From: Oscillospiraceae bacterium
GTDB taxonomy: Bacteria > Bacillota > Clostridia > Oscillospirales > Acutalibacteraceae
Assembly: GCA_015066345.1 (NCBI GenBank)
Contig: SVOQ01000025.1
Location: 1 to 36,549 of the forward strand
Reading direction: 5' to 3'
Length of the DNA: 36,549 nucleotides
The notes below the pieces were generated by a model. The model made no database searches and had not been told where the DNA came from. It worked only from the letters and a program-made list of their open reading frames with translations. The number at the start of each line of letters is the position of its first letter. Position 1 is the stretch's first letter. The position numbers and the translations under genes are program-made. This document shows positions 2-36,549 of this stretch, piece after piece.

Positions 2-3000
2 AGCCAGGGCGACTTGAACATGATAATGAATGTTCTTACTCTTGTGGGTAATGATACAAACTCAAACATCATTTCTAAAATCGCTTACGGTCTCGGTACA
101 TCCGACGGTATCAGCCTTGGCCTCGTAGGTAACTTCCTTGACCTCGGTGATATCGGCGATCTTCTCGGCGATATCCCCATGCTCCTTAAGAGCTTGCTCT
201 ACGATTTGCTCATTTACGGTTCATACGGTTATGAGAAGGATTTCGAAGAGTTGGGTAACACTCTTCCCGCAGACGTTGACACTCTCGACGAAATGGTAGC
301 TCAGACTATCGGTGGTCTCCTTGTTAATCCTCAGGATTATGATTACGAAGGCGACACAAAAGTTTGGAACGAAAATTCACTTCTCATGCCCACACTTGCA
401 GCAAAAGGTATGGCTGAAGTTAAGTCAATGACTAACATTTACAACAACAGCATTTTCAGCCTTCTTGACAAAATTGCTCCTTATGCAATTTATGACCTTG
501 GTGTTGGCGCTCTTAACAACAACCTCAAGAAAGCTCTTCTTGAAGCTGTTGAAGTTGACTTCAACGAAATCGATGTTGCAGTTCTTCCTGCAGATATCGC
601 TGCAGATTTCGAGGTTGATGCAGTTGACGGCGAAGAAAGCTATGTTACATACATCGCTTACGATAAAATCGCTCAGGACGGCGAAGACTTCTACTACACA
701 ACATTAGAAACTGAAACTGAAATGCTTAACGGCGAACCCGTTCTTGACGAAGACGGTAACGAAAAAACTTACAAAGAACGTAAGTACTTCAAAGCTAACA
801 CAGCTTCTGCTAACGACTTCTACAGCCTTATCGACTTTGGTTGGGAATTCGTAGCTCCCGTTCCCGGTGCAGAAGAAGATTCTGCAGACTTCGCACTTGA
901 TAACCTTTCAGCTCTTAACTACAAAGCTCTTATTGCTGAGTACGGTTCAATCATGGAATCTCTTAACCACCTTCTTTACGTTGTATTCGAAACAGCTGTT
1001 AAGCAGGACGTTAAGGATTACTTCGCAGATATGACCGGTGACTACTGGGTTGACGGTGCTACAACAGAAAGATATGCTGACGGCACATCCATCTTTATGG
1101 ATAACGCAGCTCGTCTTCTTAAGTATCTCCTTGCTGAGCACGCAGACAAGATCTTCGGTTCAGATTCTCCCTACGTTGCATGGGAATATGACGATGTCGC
1201 TGATTACGAGCTTCTCGACATCATCGCTATTATAGGTCCCGTATTCTTCGAGGACGTAATGCCTCAGCTCATTATGCCCAAGAATGCAGACGGTACTTAT
1301 GCATTCCACGAGGGCGTTCAGGTTCTTGAATTCGGTGCAATTGTTATCCGTGAATTCATGACTGAAATCGCTCCCAACGTAAACTATGACCAGTACATCT
1401 TTGCAGAGGGTACAGTTACATCTGCAAACGACAGACAGTTTAAGGTTCAGGATGCTGAAACTTGGTTCAACATCATCCTTAATATGGGTGTTGATATTGG
1501 TTACACATACCTTAATAACATTACAAACTTCAACACAGCTATTCCCACACAGAATATTACCGAAGCTCGTTGGAAAGACATGCTCGGTACAGCTGTTACA
1601 TGGGCAGCTAACTACGTAAGTGACGGTAGCGCAAGCGTTATCCACGGTTTTGAACCCGCAAAGCTTGCTGCTTACAACGATCCTCTCGATAAGTTCAGCT
1701 ATGTACTTAACACACTTCTTCCTCTCGGATTTATCTGTGGTTGTACAACTGACAGCTTCGCATTTGACGTAAGTGTTGTATTTGATAAGGTCAAAGCACT
1801 TCTTACAACATTTGACCTTACAGAGCTTGCTTCTCTCTTCGGTAGAAATACAGAAGCTTACAACATCCTTAACACAACAAACCTTATGGACATGGTTCTT
1901 AACCTTGTTAACGGTATTGTTAACCTCGTTCTTCCCATCAGCGAAAACGGTGACGGTGTAACAGGTCTTCTTCAGGGTGTTGGAACAGGCAGCCTTGACA
2001 ATGTAATTACAAAGGCAAACCTTAAAATAACAGTTCAGCAGCTCCTCAGAGCTCTTTATACTCAGGGTCGTGACCTTCTTAACTGCGCTCTTCCCGTAGT
2101 TGGTATGTTCATCAAGGGCTGGGGTACAGAACAGCAGTTCCAGGAACCCGAAATTTCACTTTCAAGATCTATTGACCTTGTAAACGGTGCAACAGAAGGT
2201 GCTCAGACTGTTACAGTACGTAACGCTTCAAACGGTGTTTGGAGACATTACAGAGATGCTGCAGGTAACGAATACACTGACGAACAGTATCAGATCAAGC
2301 TCATAAGCGTTAACGTTTATGACCAGCTTGGTGAAGAGGGTTCATCAGCATACGTTACAGTTAGCTCTTCACAGCAGACAATCGGTTACGGTGCAAGCGG
2401 TAGCTTCACATACACTGCTGCTAACGTTCCCACAACCGGTGCTCTTGTAAGATTCAAGGTTGGCTATAAGGTTATTGACGAAGATGGTCAGGAAATGGCT
2501 AACGGTAAGACATTCTATGCAGAATCTTACGCATACCTTAACTACAACGGTTCTGACGCAGGTAAGGAAACATACTATGATAACGGCGGTTCTCTTTCCT
2601 ACGCTAAGATGTTTGCTCCTCACTACGTTCCTCTTTCAACTGCTACAGATTACATTCCCACAATCGTTACAGGTGAAACAGGCCGTGACTACAAGTTCTT
2701 AACATCAAACCAGGAAGCCGGTCTCAGAGCTGCAACCACAACAATCGACGGTATTACCTTCGGTAACGTTAGCGTTAAGTTCTCTAACAAGTCACTTTAC
2801 TTCAGAGATCTTAAGCAGTTCAGCTCATACACAACTTATTGTGTTAACGATGATGGCGAGCAGCAGTCCGGCTCAGGTAACGCTCTTACAATCAGTGGTG
2901 GTGTTAACGAGGCAACATGGAAGGCTGCTAACAAGACATCAGGTTCAAACACAACCTTCTCAATTTACTTGAAGTCAAAGGGTAACGAAAACGGACCTCA

Positions 3001-4981
3001 TAACCTCAGCCTTATCTACTACGATGATATCGCTTACAACAAGTTGAACTCTCTTGCAATTTCTGAAATGAACGCTCTCAGACTTGCATCTAATTATAAC
3101 CTTACAGGTAAGGTTTATACAAACGGTGTTCTTGAATCTCAGAACACAACAGATGATGAGGGCGAAGTAGTTCTTCGCGAAACTGCATCTACAACAACAG
3201 CATGGATTGCTAATGCTGATGCCGGTAAGTGGGTTGGTTCTTACACAGGCGCTGACGGCACAGTTTACAACGAAACAGTTACAGAGTACGCTGCAAATGC
3301 AGTTACAGTAACTGACGAAGAAGGCGAAAACGGTTACGTAACAGTTGACGACGAAAAGATCAACGTTAAGAAAGTTACAGTTATCGATTGCGCTACAGCA
3401 GTAAACGCATACGTTCCCGCATTCCTTGAAGGTGTTCGCGGTGGTGTTCAGGCATGGAACGCTAACTCCGTATGGAACCTTGATGCTCTTTATGAAGCTC
3501 TTTACGTAGCAGCTAATGACGTTGGTTACTGTCAGAAATCTGCTATCCAGAGTGTTCGTGAAGGTAAGGGTGACAACCTTGATGCTACAGTTGATGCTCT
3601 TAAAGCAGACCTTGCAGCAAGCGAAGCTCTTTACAGCGACGCAAAAGACTATACAGATTATAAGATGTATAGATGGAACCGTTACAACGATGCTCGTGAT
3701 GATGCAGCTTACTACATCAACCTTAAGAACGACGCATCTAACGCAACAGTTGCAGAAATCGACCAGACATTCCCCTACACATGGATCAATGAGGATGACC
3801 TCAGAGCTCTTGTTGCAGGCGATGATTATGAAGATTTCATTATAGCTCTTCTTGAAGATATGGACGAAGAAGAGAGAGAAGCTACAGCTAAATGGCTTGA
3901 AGATAAGAAAGCTGAATATCAGACAACTCAGCTTCTTGACGTTGAAATGGCTATCAACTACCTCGATCGTATGGGTCCCCGTCTTCTTGCTAGAGACCAC
4001 GGTGTAATTACTAAGTATCTTGACGACGAAATTACATCAGCTAATAATATGGTTAAGGCAGAAAGCAACTATACAGCACGTAGCTGGGCTAAGTACGAAG
4101 CAGCTATGAACAATGCTCTCGCTGTTCAGGCTAACCCCACTCAGATGACTGTATTTGATGCTAAGTATGAACTTATGTGCTGCCGTAACGAACTCGTATT
4201 GGTTGAAGAAGAAGCTGACTACTCAGAGCTTGAATCTCTTATTTCTCAGGCTACTCAGGCATTGGCTAACGCAAACCTTTACGACAACACAAACAAAGAA
4301 CTTGGTCAGGTTCTTGCAGAACTTGGTTACCATGACTTTGAAAACGCAGACGGCGATATGGTTCAGCTCTTCCCCGGCTCAGCTCTTTATATAAATAGAG
4401 AACCCTATGCTACAGACGAGCAGGATGCTATCGACCAGGCTGCAAATGAACTTAAGGAAGCTCTCGCAAGACTTAAATTCAAAGGCCTCAACATTACAGG
4501 TGCAAACGTTTCTACAGAAGTTATCGTTCCCGGTGACGAAGAAGCAGGTATCGAAGATATCACAGCTTCCATCGCAAGAATTGCTCCTGAACTTGACGCT
4601 GACGCAGTTAAGACAGTTCTTGGCGCAACAGCTACAAGTGCAAACGTTTCTAAAGACCTTATCACAGTTTCTAACGACATTCACTACACAGTTGATACTG
4701 ACCTTGGTGAATATGAACTCACAGGTACAAACGCAACAGTTACATTCTACACACTCGTTGGTGGCGTAAAAGTTCCCGTTGCTACAGTTAAGATTGTTGT
4801 TGAAGCTGACGTTAACGGTGACGGTGTTCTCGACGTTCTCGACGGTGCTCTTACAGAGCTCGTTGCTAACGAACACGCTGAACTCGAAGGTTGCTACTTC
4901 ATCGCAGCTAACCTCGATGCAGCTTCAGAAGAAATCGTTGGTGCTGACTACACATTAGTTGTTAACAAGATTCTTGCTTAA
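2..4981 (+). CDS. Large secreted-type surface protein with C-terminal dockerin-like domain (5' partial)
   Basis: The reading frame is open to the left edge, so the N-terminus and any signal peptide lie outside the window; 1655 codons follow the first TTG at base 14. Counting from there, residues about 1-710 match no family I know and are rich in Asp, Ala and Asn. Residues about 715-850 look like an Ig-like beta domain. Residues about 1140-1275 and 1355-1490 are helical stretches resembling FIVAR modules. Residues about 1490-1596 are another beta domain. The last 60 residues start with a canonical type I dockerin calcium loop (DVNGDGVLDVLD); the second loop (ANLDAASEEIVGADYT) is degenerate. 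Dockerins bind cohesins on scaffold or cell-surface proteins. Codon use is strongly biased (CTT, GGT, GTT, AAC, and CCC for proline), as in a highly expressed gene. No catalytic domain was recognised, so the function is open. Confidence 0.85.
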   Translation, partial: SQGDLNMIMNVLTLVGNDTNSNIISKIAYGLGTSDGISLGLVGNFLDLGDIGDLLGDIPMLLKSLLYDLLIYGSYGYEKDFEELGNTLPADVDTLDEMVAQTIGGLLVNPQDYDYEGDTKVWNENSLLMPTLAAKGMAEVKSMTNIYNNSIFSLLDKIAPYAIYDLGVGALNNNLKKALLEAVEVDFNEIDVAVLPADIAADFEVDAVDGEESYVTYIAYDKIAQDGEDFYYTTLETETEMLNGEPVLDEDGNEKTYKERKYFKANTASANDFYSLIDFGWEFVAPVPGAEEDSADFALDNLSALNYKALIAEYGSIMESLNHLLYVVFETAVKQDVKDYFADMTGDYWVDGATTERYADGTSIFMDNAARLLKYLLAEHADKIFGSDSPYVAWEYDDVADYELLDIIAIIGPVFFEDVMPQLIMPKNADGTYAFHEGVQVLEFGAIVIREFMTEIAPNVNYDQYIFAEGTVTSANDRQFKVQDAETWFNIILNMGVDIGYTYLNNITNFNTAIPTQNITEARWKDMLGTAVTWAANYVSDGSASVIHGFEPAKLAAYNDPLDKFSYVLNTLLPLGFICGCTTDSFAFDVSVVFDKVKALLTTFDLTELASLFGRNTEAYNILNTTNLMDMVLNLVNGIVNLVLPISENGDGVTGLLQGVGTGSLDNVITKANLKITVQQLLRALYTQGRDLLNCALPVVGMFIKGWGTEQQFQEPEISLSRSIDLVNGATEGAQTVTVRNASNGVWRHYRDAAGNEYTDEQYQIKLISVNVYDQLGEEGSSAYVTVSSSQQTIGYGASGSFTYTAANVPTTGALVRFKVGYKVIDEDGQEMANGKTFYAESYAYLNYNGSDAGKETYYDNGGSLSYAKMFAPHYVPLSTATDYIPTIVTGETGRDYKFLTSNQEAGLRAATTTIDGITFGNVSVKFSNKSLYFRDLKQFSSYTTYCVNDDGEQQSGSGNALTISGGVNEATWKAANKTSGSNTTFSIYLKSKGNENGPHNLSLIYYDDIAYNKLNSLAISEMNALRLASNYNLTGKVYTNGVLESQNTTDDEGEVVLRETASTTTAWIANADAGKWVGSYTGADGTVYNETVTEYAANAVTVTDEEGENGYVTVDDEKINVKKVTVIDCATAVNAYVPAFLEGVRGGVQAWNANSVWNLDALYEALYVAANDVGYCQKSAIQSVREGKGDNLDATVDALKADLAASEALYSDAKDYTDYKMYRWNRYNDARDDAAYYINLKNDASNATVAEIDQTFPYTWINEDDLRALVAGDDYEDFIIALLEDMDEEEREATAKWLEDKKAEYQTTQLLDVEMAINYLDRMGPRLLARDHGVITKYLDDEITSANNMVKAESNYTARSWAKYEAAMNNALAVQANPTQMTVFDAKYELMCCRNELVLVEEEADYSELESLISQATQALANANLYDNTNKELGQVLAELGYHDFENADGDMVQLFPGSALYINREPYATDEQDAIDQAANELKEALARLKFKGLNITGANVSTEVIVPGDEEAGIEDITASIARIAPELDADAVKTVLGATATSANVSKDLITVSNDIHYTVDTDLGEYELTGTNATVTFYTLVGGVKVPVATVKIVVEADVNGDGVLDVLDGALTELVANEHAELEGCYFIAANLDAASEEIVGADYTLVVNKILA

Positions 4982-9864: not shown

Positions 9865-10965
9865 ATGTCAGATAATAAAAAGAAAAAAGGTAAAAAAGCC
9901 CTGATAGTTTTATTGTGTTTTGTTCTTGTGTTGGGTATTGGTTGCGGTAGTCTTGTAGCCTATTGGCACAGTATAAAAAATGCAACTCCCGAAGTTGAGG
10001 ATACTTTAACTTATGACTTCGATGGGGATGAAACTGTTGCAGTTTCACTTCAGGATGCACCTGATTTTGAACAGATATTTGAGGGCGATGCCGCAGAGCT
10101 TAAAGCAGCTATCAAAGACTGGGCAACTAACGGTGGCGACGTTATGTACAGTGAGGATGTTATTAACATCTTGTGCATCGGTGTTGATACCCGTAACAAA
10201 AATACAATCTCGGGTCTTACGGACTCTATGATTATTGTATCTGTCAACAAGGCTCTCGGTACAATAACATTTACTTCCGTTATGCGTGACAGTTACGCTT
10301 ACCTCGAATCTCCCGATGGTGTCGGCAGTTTTAATAAAATTAACTCTGCTTTCCCGTTTTATGGTATTGATAACCTTATAAATACCCTTGAAACTCACTT
10401 TAAAATCCGTATTGACGGCTATGCAATGATTAACTTCGCTCTCTTTAAAGCGGTTATTGATAAGTTGGGTGGCGTTAATGTAGAACTCAGCGAATATGAG
10501 GCACAGTATTTCAATAAAAACCACGGTTGGGACTTACAGGCGGGTTCTTCGGTTAACCTTAACGGCGACCAGGCACTTGTGTTCTGCCGTAGCCGTAAGA
10601 TTTATAACGACGGTGACGTTCAACGTACACAGAACCAACGCGAAGTTCTTATTGCTCTTCTTCAAAAGGCGGCTACAATTCAAGCTTCTGAAGTTCCTGG
10701 ATATATTAAAACATTCTTACCGTACCTTGAAACAAGCTACAATGAAGCCGAGCTAATTTCCCTCGGTACTAAAGCCGTTATGGGCGGTTGGGCAAGATTC
10801 TCGGTTAATCAGATTGTTATGCCCGACGAAAATTGCCGTAAAGCTCATTCGGGTGATGTGTGGTATTGGGAGGTTGACTATCCTCTCGCTGCACAGACTC
10901 TGCAAATGGCAATTTACGGTGACACAAACATTACACTTTCCGAAAACAGAACAGCATTTTATTAA
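9865..10965 (+). CDS. LytR-CpsA-Psr (LCP) family cell-wall polymer ligase
   Basis: The ATG at 9865 follows AAGGTGAT, which overlaps the anti-Shine-Dalgarno match; two earlier in-frame starts fall inside that site. The product is 366 aa. It has a Lys-rich cytoplasmic tail, one membrane helix at about residues 14-36, a linker of about 60 residues, and then the extracellular LCP domain (about residues 95-290). Landmarks are NILCIGVDTRN, GLTDSMIIVSVN, SVMRDSY, KINSAF and ALVFCRSRKIYNDGDVQRTQ, which include the Arg and Asp residues that bind the polyprenyl pyrophosphate. LCP enzymes transfer wall teichoic acid, capsule or other glycopolymers from a lipid carrier to peptidoglycan. It stands alone between a strong promoter and a strong terminator, beside surface-protein genes. 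Confidence 0.93.
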   Translation: MSDNKKKKGKKALIVLLCFVLVLGIGCGSLVAYWHSIKNATPEVEDTLTYDFDGDETVAVSLQDAPDFEQIFEGDAAELKAAIKDWATNGGDVMYSEDVINILCIGVDTRNKNTISGLTDSMIIVSVNKALGTITFTSVMRDSYAYLESPDGVGSFNKINSAFPFYGIDNLINTLETHFKIRIDGYAMINFALFKAVIDKLGGVNVELSEYEAQYFNKNHGWDLQAGSSVNLNGDQALVFCRSRKIYNDGDVQRTQNQREVLIALLQKAATIQASEVPGYIKTFLPYLETSYNEAELISLGTKAVMGGWARFSVNQIVMPDENCRKAHSGDVWYWEVDYPLAAQTLQMAIYGDTNITLSENRTAFY

Positions 10966-11021: not shown

Positions 11022-12176
11022 TTAGATTTCAGGGATTTCGATTACAACTTCTCTGCCTGAATCGGAAGAACGAGCAATACCGTCAATAATAGCCTGGTTG
11101 TAAATAATCTGGCTTGAGGGTACGGGTGAGGGAAGATTGAATTCGATAGCATCAATGAATGAACGGATTTTCTTGTCGAAGTTGTCGCCGTCATTGTTCA
11201 TTTCGGGGATAACGGTTTCAACGCATTCACCTGCAATGTTGTGGTAAATTGTCATAGGTCCACCGATTGAACCGTTCCAACATTCTGTTGAAGGAATTCT
11301 TAAACCGCCTTCTGTACCCATAATAATTGTATCACCGGGAGTGTCGCAATGCATTGCCCAAGCAATACGGAAGTCGAGTACGATATCGCCTTCAAGACGA
11401 ACGTATGCAGCTGCAAAGTCATCAACACCGAAAACTTCGGTGTATTCGGGTTTCTGGAGATATTCGGGCTTTTTACCGAAGAGACCTGCTTTAAAGCCTG
11501 TAACGGTAAGGGGCTTCGGATAACCGATAGCGTTAAGAACCATATCAAGTGAATAGCAACCGATATCACCTAAAGCACCGAGACCCGCTGTGTCTTCCTG
11601 AATGAAGGATGTGCCGAAGGGAGTGGGAATACCCATTCTGCGTCCGCCACCGGTCTGGATGTAGTAGATTCTGCCGAGAACACCGCTTTCGCAAATCTTC
11701 TTAACCATCTTCATATTCTCGTCGAAACGGGGTTGGAAACCGATTGAGAGAATTTTGCCGCTGCGTTTTTCTGCTTTGCAGATTTCAACTGCTTCTTCAA
11801 GAGTAACGCACATGGGTTTTTCAAGAAGAACGTGAACACCGTGGTCAAGAGCGTAAATAGCACAGGGTGCGTGTTGACGGTTGTATGTACAGATTGAAAC
11901 TGCATCAAGGTCTTTTTCGTTATCAATAAGCTCTTTATCGCTTAAGTAGAAATTAGCTTTTTCAACGTCAACACCGTTTGCCTTAGCAAAAGCCTCAGCC
12001 TTACCGGGAACAAGGTCTGCAAAAGCTACAACTTCTACGTCGTCGCATTTAAGGTAGCTTTGAAGATGTGCTTCTGCAATCCATCCGCAACCAATAATAC
12101 CGACTCTGATTTTTTTGCCGGTGTAAACTTTTTCTTCACTATGCTTCTCTTTGAAAGCATCAAGAATATTTGACAT
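11022..12176 (-). CDS. Gfo/Idh/MocA family NAD(P)-dependent oxidoreductase
   Basis: 384 aa, with a CGGAGGTA site 6 bases before the ATG. Residues about 23-145 form a Rossmann domain with the dinucleotide loop VGIIGCGWIAEAHL and the family signature LLEKPM (Lys of EKP is catalytic or cofactor-contacting). The remaining residues form the alpha/beta dimerisation domain, with GGGRRMGIPTPFG and LGDIGCYSLDM. The family oxidises or reduces sugars, inositols and related cyclic compounds; substrate cannot be read from the sequence. It is monocistronic, converging with the LCP gene, and its upstream region does not contain a sugar operon. Confidence 0.93.
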   Translation of the reverse strand: MSNILDAFKEKHSEEKVYTGKKIRVGIIGCGWIAEAHLQSYLKCDDVEVVAFADLVPGKAEAFAKANGVDVEKANFYLSDKELIDNEKDLDAVSICTYNRQHAPCAIYALDHGVHVLLEKPMCVTLEEAVEICKAEKRSGKILSIGFQPRFDENMKMVKKICESGVLGRIYYIQTGGGRRMGIPTPFGTSFIQEDTAGLGALGDIGCYSLDMVLNAIGYPKPLTVTGFKAGLFGKKPEYLQKPEYTEVFGVDDFAAAYVRLEGDIVLDFRIAWAMHCDTPGDTIIMGTEGGLRIPSTECWNGSIGGPMTIYHNIAGECVETVIPEMNNDGDNFDKKIRSFIDAIEFNLPSPVPSSQIIYNQAIIDGIARSSDSGREVVIEIPEI

Positions 12177-31711: not shown

Positions 31712-32116
31712 TTATTCGTTAGTTAAAAGTACACCGTGGGCTATACCGGGTATGGATTCTTTTTGTAGTGATGAAGTGGGGGATAGCAGGGCACCCGTCC
31801 CAACAAATAAAACTTTGTTGAGTTTTTTTGCGGTCATACAGTCTAAAATATAGGAGCAAACTACCGTAGCACTGCAACCGCACCCTGAACCGCCCGAATG
31901 AACATCTTGTTTCTGTGGGTCAAAAATCATAATTCCGCAATCATTATGAACCTTTGAAATGTCGATATTATTCTCACTTTTCAGTAACTCAATAAGAAGT
32001 CTGCTTCCCGTTGAACCTAAATCTCCCGTAAGAATTAAATCATAATCTTCAGGTTCGGTTTGAGTATCTCTTAAAAATCGGGCAATGGTCTGAGCCGCCG
32101 CGGGGGTAAATGTCAA
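31712..32116 (-). pseudogene. spoVAD: Stage V sporulation protein AD, C-terminal fragment
   Basis: 134 codons matching only the last part of SpoVAD, which is normally about 335-340 aa. Diagnostic stretches are DYDLILTGDLGSTGSRLLIE, VHNDCGIMIFDPQKQDVHSG, GSGCGCSATVVCSYI and PTSSLQKESIPGIAHGVLL. SpoVAD has a thiolase-like fold and binds dipicolinic acid for uptake into the spore. The frame stays open upstream, but similarity stops close to PAAAQTI (about 32105-32113), and beyond lies the recombinase module. The first 200 or so residues are missing in this window. The fragment may be rejoined with its other half by excision of an element, or be a dead remnant. Confidence 0.85.
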
Positions 32117-32174
32117 GGGTACACCATAAAATAAATGAAAAATTTTATTTTTATTTACATAATAAACAGATGAA

Positions 32175-32203
32175 ATCCACCTACAAACAAAAGGTAGGTG
32201 GAT
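32175..32203. terminator. Terminator behind the recombinase gene
   Basis: ATCCACCTAC and GTAGGTGGAT around a nine-base A-rich loop. It lies between the recombinase stop and the spoVAD fragment and has T's on both sides. Confidence 0.75.
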
Positions 32204-32208
32204 TTTTG

Positions 32209-33915
32209 TTAAGCAAGTTTCTTTAAAGTTTCATTACTTTCGTCGATAATATCCTTGTTGAGTTCAATATACTCAAGTGCTTGTTGATAAGCATCTTTGA
32301 ATTTAAAGACAATCTCAACATCACCACCCTCATGAATGAAAATTTCTTCAACAAGCTCTATTAACAGGCTACGGGTTAATTGATTTATATTTCCGTATTT
32401 TTTAAAATGCGCTATAAAATCATTATCTCCATTTGCTCCTTGAGCAAATTCATCAGCGGATTTTTTTAATGCTTCAATTTTTTGGTCAAGTGTTTTTAAT
32501 TTATCATTAAGTTCAGCTTTTAAAAAAACATATTCTTCTTGTGTAATAATGTTATTTTTCCAGTCTGGATAGAGATCTGCAATAATACGTTGAGTCTTTT
32601 CTCGCTCTTCTAAATATGTTTCTATATTCTTTTTTAAATGGTCTGATTCTTTTTTACGCTTAGGACTTTTATTAATCTTTTCTAAAAGTTCATCTATACA
32701 TATTGCTGTTTCTATCATTTTTTGTATAGTAATAAGCACGGTTTGCTCTAATCTATCAATACGTATTGTGTGATTTGAACAGGCACTTTTTTTCATTTTG
32801 CGAGATGTTACGCAACGATAATATCTATAAGTTCCATAAGAATGCGTGTTTGTTTTTTTATTCATTACACGTTTACAGTCTGCACATCGTACTAGACCGG
32901 AAAATAAATCAATATCTTTCTTTTGTGGACTTTTACGAATATTTTTGTTGAAAAGTGATTGTGCGAGTTCAAAGGTGTTTTTATCAATAATAGGTTCATG
33001 AGTGTTTTCTACAATGATCCAATCATCTTTTGGGATTGCTCTACATTGTTTTATCTTATAACTCATAGTAGTGTTTCTGCCTTGAACCATATTACCAATA
33101 TACATTTGATTCTGAAGTATTCGGCGTACAGAACTATCGTGCCATAAACCATCGTTACTTCTTCCTGTTGGATGTTTATAATTTAAACCTTTTATTTTTT
33201 TGTACATTGAAGGATTAGGTAATCCCATTTCATTAAGATCTTTGGTTATTCCTATGATACTTTCTCCTGAAATAAACTTTTCATATATCAATCTTATAAT
33301 AGGAGCAGTTTCTTCGTCAATAATAAGTTTATGATGATCATTGGGATCTTTTAAAAAACCATAAGAGGGGAATGAACCAATGAATTTTCCTTGTTGTCTA
33401 TTAACATTGAGAGTTGCTCTAACATTTACTGAAGTAGTTGCTGCTAAACTCTCATTTATAACATTAGTAACACCTACTGAAATACACTGCATAGCCGCAT
33501 TCATATTTCCTGATGCAGTATCTAATCCATTGTTTAATGCTATAAAACGAACTCTATATCGCACAAAGACATTGTCAAGATAATTTCCGGCGTCGGTATA
33601 GTTTCGTCCGAATCGAGATAAATCTTTAACGATAACACAGTTTACTTTTCCGTTATAGATGTCTTCCATCATTCTTGTGAATCCTGGTCGATCAAAATTA
33701 GTTCCTGACCAACCGTCATCTATATAGTAATCATAAAGTTCAATATCTGGATGTATTTTTAAATATTCTTTTAAAATCTCGCGCTGAGATGTGATTGAGT
33801 AACTTTCCGCTTTATCTCCATCTTCACGAGAAAGTCGGATATAAAGAGCAGCCTTCCATACCATAACAGGTATTGAAGGCTGTGTTAAAATTTCTGAGTA
33901 ATTAGAATTTGCCAT
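32209..33915 (-). CDS. Large serine recombinase (TnpX/TndX-like)
   Basis: 568 aa. The ATG at 33915 is preferred because GGAGG lies eight bases upstream; five more codons precede it in frame. Residues about 15-160 form the resolvase domain, with AALYIRLSREDG supplying the catalytic Ser, ITSQREILKEYL, and VIVKDLSRFGRNYTDAGNY. The recombinase domain follows (GFLKDPNDHHKLIIDEETAP), then a zinc ribbon (SGLVRCADCKRVMNKK and later RYYRCVTSRKMKKSACSNHT), and a coiled-coil end. Such enzymes integrate and excise mobile elements and prophages without host factors, sometimes with a directionality partner. The gene sits at the edge of the truncated spoVAD. Confidence 0.95.
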   Translation of the reverse strand: MANSNYSEILTQPSIPVMVWKAALYIRLSREDGDKAESYSITSQREILKEYLKIHPDIELYDYYIDDGWSGTNFDRPGFTRMMEDIYNGKVNCVIVKDLSRFGRNYTDAGNYLDNVFVRYRVRFIALNNGLDTASGNMNAAMQCISVGVTNVINESLAATTSVNVRATLNVNRQQGKFIGSFPSYGFLKDPNDHHKLIIDEETAPIIRLIYEKFISGESIIGITKDLNEMGLPNPSMYKKIKGLNYKHPTGRSNDGLWHDSSVRRILQNQMYIGNMVQGRNTTMSYKIKQCRAIPKDDWIIVENTHEPIIDKNTFELAQSLFNKNIRKSPQKKDIDLFSGLVRCADCKRVMNKKTNTHSYGTYRYYRCVTSRKMKKSACSNHTIRIDRLEQTVLITIQKMIETAICIDELLEKINKSPKRKKESDHLKKNIETYLEEREKTQRIIADLYPDWKNNIITQEEYVFLKAELNDKLKTLDQKIEALKKSADEFAQGANGDNDFIAHFKKYGNINQLTRSLLIELVEEIFIHEGGDVEIVFKFKDAYQQALEYIELNKDIIDESNETLKKLA

Positions 33916-33943
33916 AATACATGCCTCCATAGTTTTTATGAAG

Positions 33944-33978
33944 GTATGGTTTTTCTACACAATGGCAGTTTACCATAC
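33944..33978. promoter_or_regulatory. Inverted repeat over the recombinase promoter
   Basis: GTATGGT and ACCATAC separated by 21 bases. One arm overlaps the end of the -10 element and the other lies in the leader, so it is placed as an autoregulatory operator or recombinase binding site. Confidence 0.4.
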
Positions 33979-33995
33979 ATTTGGTTTTTTATCAA
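33967..33995 (-). promoter_or_regulatory. Probable recombinase promoter
   Basis: TTGATA, 17 bases, TAAACT on the minus strand, about 52 bases before the start codon. Confidence 0.5.
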
Positions 33996-34006
33996 GCTTA
34001 TTTTGG

Positions 34007-34261
34007 TTAGAAATTAATGGAATTTATTATTGCTGTTTCCAAAGCATTAGTGAATGTGTTTTCAGAGTTGAAACGTATTTTTACTTTTGTTTCTCCTACC
34101 TTGAAAAGGTAAGGGTTTTTGACTTGTTCTAAAAAGTCAATAAGCCGTTCTTGGATAGGTTTGTTTGTACAGATATTTATGCTACAAATATCTATAAGGT
34201 TTTCTTTTGAATAGTCAGTAAACGAAGCATTTTGATATTGTTTTAAAGTATTGTTAAGCAT
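34007..34261 (-). CDS. Small recombinase-associated protein, unknown
   Basis: 84 aa. The weak site GAAAGG lies 13 bases upstream of the ATG. The middle reads RLIDFLEQVKNPYLFKVGET, followed by KVKIRFNSENTFTNALETAI. I recall short proteins with a KNPY-hydrophobic-VG-VK-I-F pattern beside TnpX-type recombinases in Clostridia, without known function. A directionality factor or regulator is possible. It precedes the recombinase in the same direction with a 91-base gap holding the promoter and inverted repeat. Confidence 0.65.
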   Translation of the reverse strand: MLNNTLKQYQNASFTDYSKENLIDICSINICTNKPIQERLIDFLEQVKNPYLFKVGETKVKIRFNSENTFTNALETAIINSINF

Positions 34262-34307
34262 ATATCACATAACCTTTCATAGCGTATTTTTGACACTTGG
34301 AAAATTT

Positions 34308-34415
34308 TTATTCATTTTTATATGTGATTTTGTTTTGACTCTTATCAAGCGGCTGATAGCTACTCAGCTCCACGGGTATTTCACCCTCAGCAGGTTCTCT
34401 GCCAACTGCCCTCAT
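34308..34415 (-). other. Possible 35-aa ORF or remnant of a larger gene
   Basis: The frame from ATG reads MRAVGREPAEGEIPVELSSY and 15 more residues. It is protein-like and more GC-rich than its surroundings, but no ribosome binding site is visible and the frame continues upstream to about 34475. It may be the tail of a gene cut by the rearrangement. Confidence 0.3.
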
Positions 34416-34453
34416 TGGTTGCGACGGTTTTATCACGCTCGACCTGTGACTAA

Positions 34454-36370
34454 ACAGGAGTATCATTATCACTATATTTCACTAAAATAATACCAATTAA
34501 AAAAAATAATAATGTAATTATCATACAATGCAATGCTAATGCACAAGTAGGAATATCACAATACATCGGAAATGATGGGGAAGAAAATTATAAGACACTT
34601 TTAGCAGACACAACATATGTTTTTTCTGCCGACGTCACTGTGCTTAACAGTATACCAAGCGATGATTACGCCTTTAACGCTATAATCGAATTGTATTTAC
34701 CCTCAAATCCTGAAATACCGTTTGATACAATTAAATTACCTTTTGATGTGTCTTTATTAAACGAAGTTCAGACAAGAATGTGCTCTTTTAAAAACGATAT
34801 TGAGTGTGAGGCAATGATATCAATATATGCTGACGGAAATGTCGGAGAATTCATTGTAGATAATATTCGCATATACAAAGCAACCCCAGAAGATGGAGCT
34901 ATAGCAATCCCCGGAGTTTCAACATCTGATCCAATTGCAACAACTATTACAGATATAGGTCAAATAAAAAGGGAATTAATCACCGACGGAACAAACTATA
35001 TGCTTCAAGAATATGATTATACTTCTGATTGTGCAAAAGCAATCGGTGTTAATGATTTCAATGGTATTTCTACATATTTCGATTATACAGGAAGAACGGA
35101 AATACTTTCTGAAAAAGGTTATGCTATTGATAGCAGAAATTTAATCGTAGATCCAATTGTTTATGATTATAATCGTGCCGGTCTTTTGCAATATGTTTCA
35201 CAGACTGTAAATAGTGTTACTGGAGAAGAAATTGAGTTATTAACGGAATATACATATGATTCTTCCGAACGCATAACTTCAGTTTCCAATAACAATTATT
35301 GCTATAATTTCACTTATGACGATATTGGTAACATAACTAACATAAATAAGGAAACTGTTGCATCAGAAACACCTGAAACAAATAATTTAATTGACTATAC
35401 CTATGCTAACAACAATATAGGTATAATTACTTACTCTAACGGATACAAGTTGGAATATTCTTACAATGAAAACGGCGAAATAACTAATATCACCGGTTAT
35501 AAACTCAATGCTAATGATAGTTATGATGTTGTTGGTTCTTACACATACACATATTCAAACGGTCGCATTGCCGAAACTGTAATAAGTTCTTGTGATTTAT
35601 CACACGATGTAAAAATAAAGACTACAGATACAAGTATTGCTATTTATTATTTACAAGGCAATACAGAGCTTGTGGTTTATTCTAAAGAAAAACGCAATTC
35701 GAACACTGTCGAAACTTTTATTTCCTCTGTAAGTGGCAGTAATGAATATGAAACACTCACAAAAACTCCAATCACCGAAATAACTGTTGGAACAACAACT
35801 GAGCTTTACTCAGAATTCCATAGTGAAAAACGCTCATTGTTAGATTCTGGTTTGCTTGTTGCAACTGACGGCAGCAATAATGTAGTTACTGATTATTTTG
35901 GAAGAATAGTTTCGAAATATTCTACTTTGGAAGCGAATGCAGTAGGGTCAACATCAGCAGATTCGTTACTGCTTGGGTTGACTAATAATTATACTTACAA
36001 AGAACTTACTCCTGTTGAGGATATCCCTGGTATTCGAACAAGCAATTTAATCGAAAGTATTACTAATGCTTCTAAAATTTTAAGTGAAACAGGAAGCTGG
36101 GATTATCTTAATGGTAGAAATCTCAAAAACATGGGTATTGAAAGAATCGCCTCAAATCTTTTTGCACGCTGTGTGGGCAACTACGCAGAGAGTGCTGTCA
36201 ACAGAGTTAATGCAACTTGGGGTGATGGTTGGATTGTAAGCAATAGAAATAGTGCTAAGATCATTATTACTGAATTGGATTCAAATGCAGACAAGTACAT
36301 GAAAATTTGGTTGGCAGCACCTTCAATCAAATCATTTGCGACAGCACATGGTATTTATATAACTTTATAA
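34454..36370 (+). pseudogene. YD-repeat (RHS-like) wall protein, 5' truncated
   Basis: The frame is open from 34454 with no ribosome binding site or convincing start; the first GTG at 34640 lies inside a domain. Recognisable protein begins near 34544 (QVGISQYIGNDGEENYKTLL) with the end of a jelly-roll carbohydrate-binding-like domain (TTYVFSADVTV to FIVDNIRIYK). Six or so YD-type repeats follow, such as YDYNRAGLLQYV, YTYDSSERITSV, FTYDDIGNITNI, YSYNENGEITNI and YTYSNGRIAETV. The last 150 residues lack the RHS core signature and I cannot assign them; a toxin-like end is possible but unsupported. Codon use is more AT-rich than in the genes before 30 kb. It is probably the 3' part of a long surface or polymorphic-toxin protein. 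Confidence 0.7.
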
Positions 36371-36440: not shown

Positions 36441-36549
36441 ATGAAGAAAATAATAAGCACTATTATATGCATATCTTTACTATCATCAATAATCTGCATT
36501 CCTGTATCAGCAACGGAAGACGTTGTTACATCAGAAAGCATAGACGAAT
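36441..36549 (+). CDS. Secreted protein, N-terminal fragment (3' partial)
   Basis: AGAGGGAGTAACAA precedes the ATG. The visible 36 codons are a signal peptide (KKIISTIICISLLSSIIC...VSA) and an acidic start (TEDVVTSESIDE). The gene continues beyond the window. It could be the intact counterpart of the truncated YD-repeat gene, since long wall proteins often start this way. Confidence 0.75.
   Translation, partial: MKKIISTIICISLLSSIICIPVSATEDVVTSESIDE

Follow-up and report, generated by a model that had tools for sequence, protein, structure and literature searches.

Several sporulation genes are known to be interrupted by intervening elements: skin in sigK, SPbeta in spsM, vfbin in spoVFB, a further element in spoVR, yin in yabG and gin in gerE. 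According to the excerpts we drew upon from the literature on intervening elements, spoVA regulation and related elements (PMC6907783, PMC5595907, PMC4191935, PMC10747680, PMC5629000, PMC3789822, PMC5025042 and PMC5704250; descriptions of published systems below have this same partial basis), these elements have in common a site-specific recombinase, a short core and in-frame restoration of the gene on excision. The genes sigK, spsM, gerE and spoVFB act in the mother cell, and both SPbeta and the skin element of Clostridioides difficile are reported to be excised only from the chromosome of the mother cell, which dies, so that the spore keeps the element. Here we describe a similar interruption of spoVAD, seen in a stretch of 36,549 nucleotides from a gut-dwelling Oscillospiraceae bacterium of the Acutalibacteraceae (assembly GCA_015066345.1, contig SVOQ01000025.1, positions 1 to 36,549), which we call the window and which, on our best reading, holds one end of an integrative element of the integrative and conjugative element (ICE) or integrative and mobilizable element (IME) lineage. 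We consider it probable that the large serine recombinase of such elements uses spoVAD as its chromosomal attachment site (attB), that excision would restore the gene exactly and that the interruption is thereby reversible.

We note that the spoVAD elements resemble gin in being, by its description, non-prophage, and that two features set them apart from the skin-type elements. Their target lies in the spoVA operon, a set of forespore genes under the control of sigma G in Bacillus subtilis and C. difficile, and they carry mobilisation or conjugation genes. SpoVAD is needed in other bacteria to load spores with dipicolinic acid. The Clostridia IMEs and ICEs typified by Tn4451 (recombinase TnpX) and Tn5397 (TndX) share with the spoVAD elements a related recombinase, a relaxase and, in two cases (genomes G148 and G298 in our numbering), the protein TnpV. 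Tn4451 has a 2-bp core, as the spoVAD elements also appear to have, but it and its relatives show low site specificity, whereas the spoVAD elements occupy one conserved site with the core CC. The rumA IMEs of streptococci likewise insert site-specifically and disrupt their target, a gene described as dispensable; in the elements reported here the target is one for sporulation. In Bacillus, spoVA2mob (on Tn1546) also links a mobile element to spoVA genes, but carries them whereas here the host's own spoVA is interrupted. No earlier report of a spoVAD-interrupting element was found in our search of the open-access literature.

The two halves of spoVAD in the genome of the window

An earlier note on this DNA, made from the letters of the window, had described only the C-terminal 40% of SpoVAD, ending near the stop codon of a serine recombinase, and this description proved accurate. 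The open reading frame at 31712-32116 on the minus strand matches positions 201-328 of the 329 in the Pfam SpoVAD profile (E 4.3e-55); its host-derived part, which ends at the core CC, accounts for about 132 of 340 residues (39%), and the recombinase stop codon lies about 105 bases from that core. A profile search of the whole genome (G000; 2.33 Mb in 48 contigs, 98% complete) returned two matches over the cut-off, the half in the window and an N-terminal half on a separate contig, C34 (profile positions 1-206 at C34:5830-6456, minus strand). The intact spoVAD that the note had set against its own proposal was not found in this whole-genome search, and the N-terminal half that it had expected further right, in the same orientation and together with spoVAC, is the one on C34: it occupies C34:6471-5840 on the minus strand, its orientation fits, and spoVAC lies further along the contig, upstream on the same strand.

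Joined at their common CC, the halves give a SpoVAD of 340 residues, all 340 of which align without gaps with the intact protein of G016, of the same genus, at 81% identity. We regard the split structure of the gene in the genome of the window as established, apart from the contig gap, while the order of the element and the halves across the two contigs is one that we infer. The window contig and C34 may adjoin, with a subtilase gene running across the gap: the window stops within such a gene, and C34 starts with a short, later piece (residues 182-235 of a 1072-residue protein of G018, at C34:3-164). Because this piece is just 52% identical to the G018 protein and ends in a stop codon, we put the adjacency forward tentatively; a subtilase gene like that of G018 would leave a gap of about 0.44 kb and give an element of about 10.7 kb. 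Between spoVAC and the N-terminal half, C34 also has two short stretches (10038-10139 and 11873-11977) whose match to the SpoVAC/SpoVAEB profile is confined to its end (83-117), and comparable profile-end stretches occur in G007, G182, G199, G299 and others.

Uninterrupted relatives, with which comparison had been proposed, are plentiful: a single full or nearly full-length SpoVAD match is present in 18 of the 22 genomes of the genus, the exceptions being the genome of the window and G018, both with two halves, G017, with the N-terminal half only, and G004, with no match.

The split site across the family

As read in the assemblies, the split structure is general beyond the genome of the window. 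Among 298 family genomes at least 85% complete, SpoVAD was found in 266 and was cut at the same codons in 26. These comprise 21 genomes with the gene in two pieces (G000, G018, G039, G053, G092, G136, G148, G156, G157, G181, G184, G185, G199, G221, G250, G253, G276, G280, G281, G298 and G324) and 5 in which one half is accompanied by an element arm that was read (G090, G182, G111, G215 and G317). The 41 genomes re-examined were selected by eye on the number and score of their matches, the remaining single-match genomes being unread, so that 26 may be low; G131, G240, G273, G187, G302, G046 and G125 were excluded as ambiguous. G028 and G039 are apparently one genome, with identical contig numbers and positions. 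A separate locus search gave 14 split loci in 80, which is not a prevalence, since one of its patterns spanned the split-form junction.

Both junctions were read in 29 genomes, and on the N side the host part breaks at the MGAAMAP codons every time. The attB recognised by the recombinase would be a conserved stretch of spoVAD, the codons for MGAAMAPAA. The element arms form imperfect inverted repeats around CC, as expected of the element-borne attachment site (attP) of a serine integrase, with a mean of 16.9 of 26 positions as compared to 8.1 when shuffled (25 genomes whose arms our script could take). The common break point and the paired arms together speak against a cut made by chance. There are two arm types, the second of which (for instance in G026 and G185) has the shared stretch ATGGCNCC and weaker symmetry (11-15 of 26), and this longer shared stretch leaves the exact crossover bases unfixed in that group. 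Recombination between the two element ends, catalysed by the recombinase, would rejoin spoVAD exactly.

A single contig carries both halves, on the same strand, in G148 (11.8 kb apart), G298 (13.6 kb), G026 (22.1 kb) and G024 (34.0 kb). Since spoVAC and spoVAEB adjoin the two halves in G148, the spoVA operon is interrupted there. The proposal of a spoVAD-intervening element is borne out as to halves that flank an element in one orientation, their in-frame join and the presence of a recombinase; in two points the present elements differ from skin, their apparent ICE/IME type and a target gene that belongs to the forespore in B. subtilis and C. difficile.

Some of the elements are far more alike than the genes they divide. 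Recombinases 99.5-99.7% identical lie beside spoVAD halves 61-75% identical; between G136 and G299, of two genera, 2711 bp of element DNA are 99.8% identical and end at the junction, where the C-terminal halves are 61% identical; and synonymous divergence (dS) between G000 and G018 is 0.02 in the recombinase versus 1.85 in the N-terminal half. Near-identical elements beside divergent hosts indicate that the elements move between species and genera while keeping to one target site. We also looked for a split ancestral to a genus, without establishing one: element flanks are more alike than host genes in G185 and G250 and in other pairs, not in all, and this fits transfer. Genus g102 has a SpoVAD match in 4 of 10 genomes, none of them intact, and in genus g58 the gene is split in 4 of 7 genomes, full or nearly full in 2, and in pieces with a stop in 1 (G302).

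Separately, extra C-terminal halves beside element-like arms were seen in genomes that have another full or near-full-length spoVAD: loci L187 and L188 in G299, L190 in G279, L152 in G035 and L146 in G030. The other copy is frameshifted in G030 and cut by a contig end in G279, and the two extra halves of G299 differ from one another and from the intact copy.

The recombinase and the contents of the elements

The nearest solved relatives of the window recombinase, which has Resolvase, Recombinase and Zn-ribbon domains, are TnpX and YokA of SPbeta, and it is 36% identical to TndX. Elsewhere it matched one IMG/VR contig at 42% identity, and plasmid matches were all below 60%. Besides that of the window, 17 further recombinases were recovered from element flanks; in G033 the recombinase was found only in two pieces. 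A protein with the NPY[LM]F motif of the window's DUF6870 protein precedes 13 of the 15 recombinases examined (one miss had only 70 bases examined), and G148 and G024 also have a Pfam match to DUF6870; we suggest this protein as a candidate accessory or directionality factor.

The single-contig elements encode TnpV, NikA/MobC, a relaxase and the DUF6870 protein (G148), NikA/MobC, a relaxase and the DUF6870 protein (G024), a NikA-like protein, with no relaxase among the proteins tested (G026), and TnpV (G298). Larger tracts are attached to spoVAD halves in G017 (42.6 kb) and G018 (39 and 24.6 kb). Genes for a MobL relaxase, a conjugative coupling protein and a TraG-like ATPase lie on the G017 piece beyond the N-terminal half; their assignment to the element draws support from 3.1 kb of the relaxase region, 96.8% identical to the C34 piece of the window genome, and neither a C-terminal half nor the other element end was found in G017. 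In the window genome's own element, a MobL relaxase gene and a primase-like gene lie on C34; no type IV secretion system gene was seen among the tested proteins on its two pieces, which may be incomplete. Phage structural or packaging families were absent among 20 proteins, ten from the G026 element and ten from that of G024, compared with PHROGs. The cargo of these elements (loci L141-L144) includes YobI-like ATPases in both; G026 also has a HipA-like regulator and a Fic/DOC protein, and G024 an AbiEii-like AAA protein.

The features at the element end of the window are collected in Table 1. The pemK motif listed there is also present in G018 (L114:11553-11652), 11 other sources falling below the gathering score. 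At the opposite end of the window, a large open reading frame at 2-4981 on the plus strand (1659 residues, open at the window start) has no Pfam match at E 0.001.

Table 1. Features of the window from the divided spoVAD gene to the contig end
Feature	Position	Strand	Basis
C-terminal part of spoVAD, host-derived, including the core CC	31712..32104	-	Pfam SpoVAD 201-328; joins the C34 half without gaps
Inferred 2-bp crossover core CC, the first two bases of the MGAAMAP Pro codon	32103..32104	-	Junctions of 29 genomes
Element arm of the attachment site	32105..32130	-	Imperfect inverted repeat of the arm on the N-half side, 17/26 positions here
Large serine recombinase, 573 aa, TnpX/TndX-like	32209..33930	-	Pfam PF00239, PF07508, PF13408
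DUF6870 protein of 84 aa, encoded immediately upstream of the recombinase	34007..34261	-	PF21757, E 3.7e-20
pemK RNA motif, of a cis-regulatory family, located upstream of the gene for the DUF6870 protein	34370..34469	-	RF02913, 57 bits against a gathering score of 34.8
Open reading frame with a match to the end of an element protein (1760 aa) of G018	34640..36370	+	YD-repeat-like by eye; without Pfam match
Subtilase-type element gene, first 36 residues; the contig stops here	36441..36549	+	tblastn with a 1072-aa G018 protein (PF00082), 78%

Probable reversible interruption and its alternatives

If excision restores spoVAD, the chromosome of cells that are to make normal spores, or of the descendants of element-bearing cells that do so, must be free of the element, and excision would be either timed to sporulation or an ordinary step before conjugative transfer. 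If the spoVA genes are sigma-G forespore genes here as in B. subtilis and C. difficile, an element-free spoVAD would be needed in the forespore itself for spores with dipicolinic acid. Such a need would imply either germ-line excision, followed by reintegration or loss, or defective spores for as long as the element is carried.

The strongest rival to reversible interruption is plain insertional inactivation, in which spoVAD is knocked out and the host lineage is without normal sporulation while it carries the element; we judge this possible, though on the whole rather unlikely. It is opposed by the state of the hosts and of the divided gene. SpoVAC/AEB was found in 28 of 28 split or half-bearing genomes (the ambiguous G273 included) and SpoIVA in 26, both misses being genomes 86% complete; both were present in 15 of 15 genomes with intact spoVAD, and in 13 tested of the 32 genomes that have no SpoVAD the counts were 3 and 4, the 15 and the 13 having been hand-chosen from listings. 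Internal stops or truncation affect none of 58 halves in 29 genomes, versus 3 of 9 spare C-terminal halves beside another copy (Fisher P 0.002, from a hand-set table with G277 and G302 left out, insertion age uncontrolled and genomes chosen for having both halves). On terminal branches, the ratio of protein to third-position change has a median of 0.214 in split copies (n=28) versus 0.272 in the others (n=45; P 0.25), a weak test since third positions are near saturation, and overall constraint shows no relaxation. Pairwise dN/dS of the halves (the ratio of nonsynonymous to synonymous divergence) is low in the closest split pairs, at 0.03-0.1, but cannot serve as proof of selection while split, since the recombinases show recent transfer.

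That recent horizontal spread favours inactivation, as intact halves may mean just recent insertion, and it heads a number of observations that weigh against reversibility. The excised circle, with its attP, was absent from viral contigs (0), from 289 loci (0) and from 398 family genomes (0), in a search with exact degenerate patterns of the window arm type, by which other arm types would be missed. The highest protein to third-position ratio of 73 copies belongs to a split one (G199, 0.876), and in G302, omitted as ambiguous, the pieces lie at the edges of contigs and the C-terminal one contains a stop. All 14 split records of the 80-locus search come from metagenome-assembled or uncultured genomes. 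Relatives with the fragment and no recombinase had been named by the earlier note as evidence against it, and this may apply to G092, G185 and G250, three split genomes of one genus, in whose examined flanks no related recombinase was found. No consensus for sigma E, sigma G or sigma K, in a search with consensus strings for the three, was seen ahead of the genes for the DUF6870 protein and the recombinase in 13 elements (a gene for a recombination directionality factor (RDF) elsewhere was not searched for). Furthermore, one review describes serine-recombinase IMEs that disrupt dispensable genes, for instance rumA in streptococci. A trace of an empty site is seen in G187, where the end of its own contig C34 overlaps the start of C16 (L253 and L282) by an exact 141 bp at the crossover and the latter continues into an intact C-terminal half; this suggests that occupied and empty sites coexist in the sample, and the other branch at the crossover, which is not in the bin, counts on the opposite side. 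Two G240 contigs with a 20-bp overlap at the crossover were not counted as evidence.

A sharper form of the reversible explanation is that of a programmed, skin-like element, whose excision is induced by sporulation and would have to take place either within the forespore or ahead of asymmetric division; the element would then return by reintegration or be kept as a circle in the spore. We think this doubtful, and it is improbable, in our estimate, that the programme runs in the spore-forming cell with a restored spore chromosome and a circle that is kept along or lost, reintegrating at outgrowth. In favour of a programme, a sporulation gene is the target and is cut in frame, sporulation genes are retained in the split genomes, and among the relatives of the recombinase is YokA of SPbeta, which we take to be the integrase of the spsM rearrangement. 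That no sporulation promoter was seen in the 13 elements speaks against a programme, an argument tempered by the case of C. difficile skin, whose recombinase is constitutive and in which the RDF alone is developmental; the recombinase of Tn4451 is described as excising without an RDF. Moreover, forespore excision would leave the spore chromosome without the element, in contrast to SPbeta, which is excised in the mother cell only.

Alternatively, the two halves might function as separate polypeptides without excision, for which both open frames and a TTG codon at the C-half junction could be cited. We hold this very improbable, given that the N-terminal half acquires a short element-encoded tail, that no ribosome site is evident by eye before the C-terminal half, and that spoVAEB is severed from its operon in G148. 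An artefact of assembly or binning, which the halves on different contigs of the 48-contig window assembly and the lone N-terminal half of G017 might suggest, is scarcely credible against the identical junction in many separate assemblies and the four single-contig cases.

Whether the interruption is reversible, as we favour, or not, elements of ICE/IME type cut spoVAD in 26 of the 266 SpoVAD-bearing genomes of one bacterial family, and this raises the question of whether a forespore gene is restored without germ-line loss of the element, or whether normal spores are given up in the meantime. Programmed excision in the spore-forming cell, if true, would represent a germ-line rather than a terminal developmental DNA rearrangement. 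Either answer bears on the spores, and hence possibly on the host-to-host transmission, of uncultured gut Clostridia.

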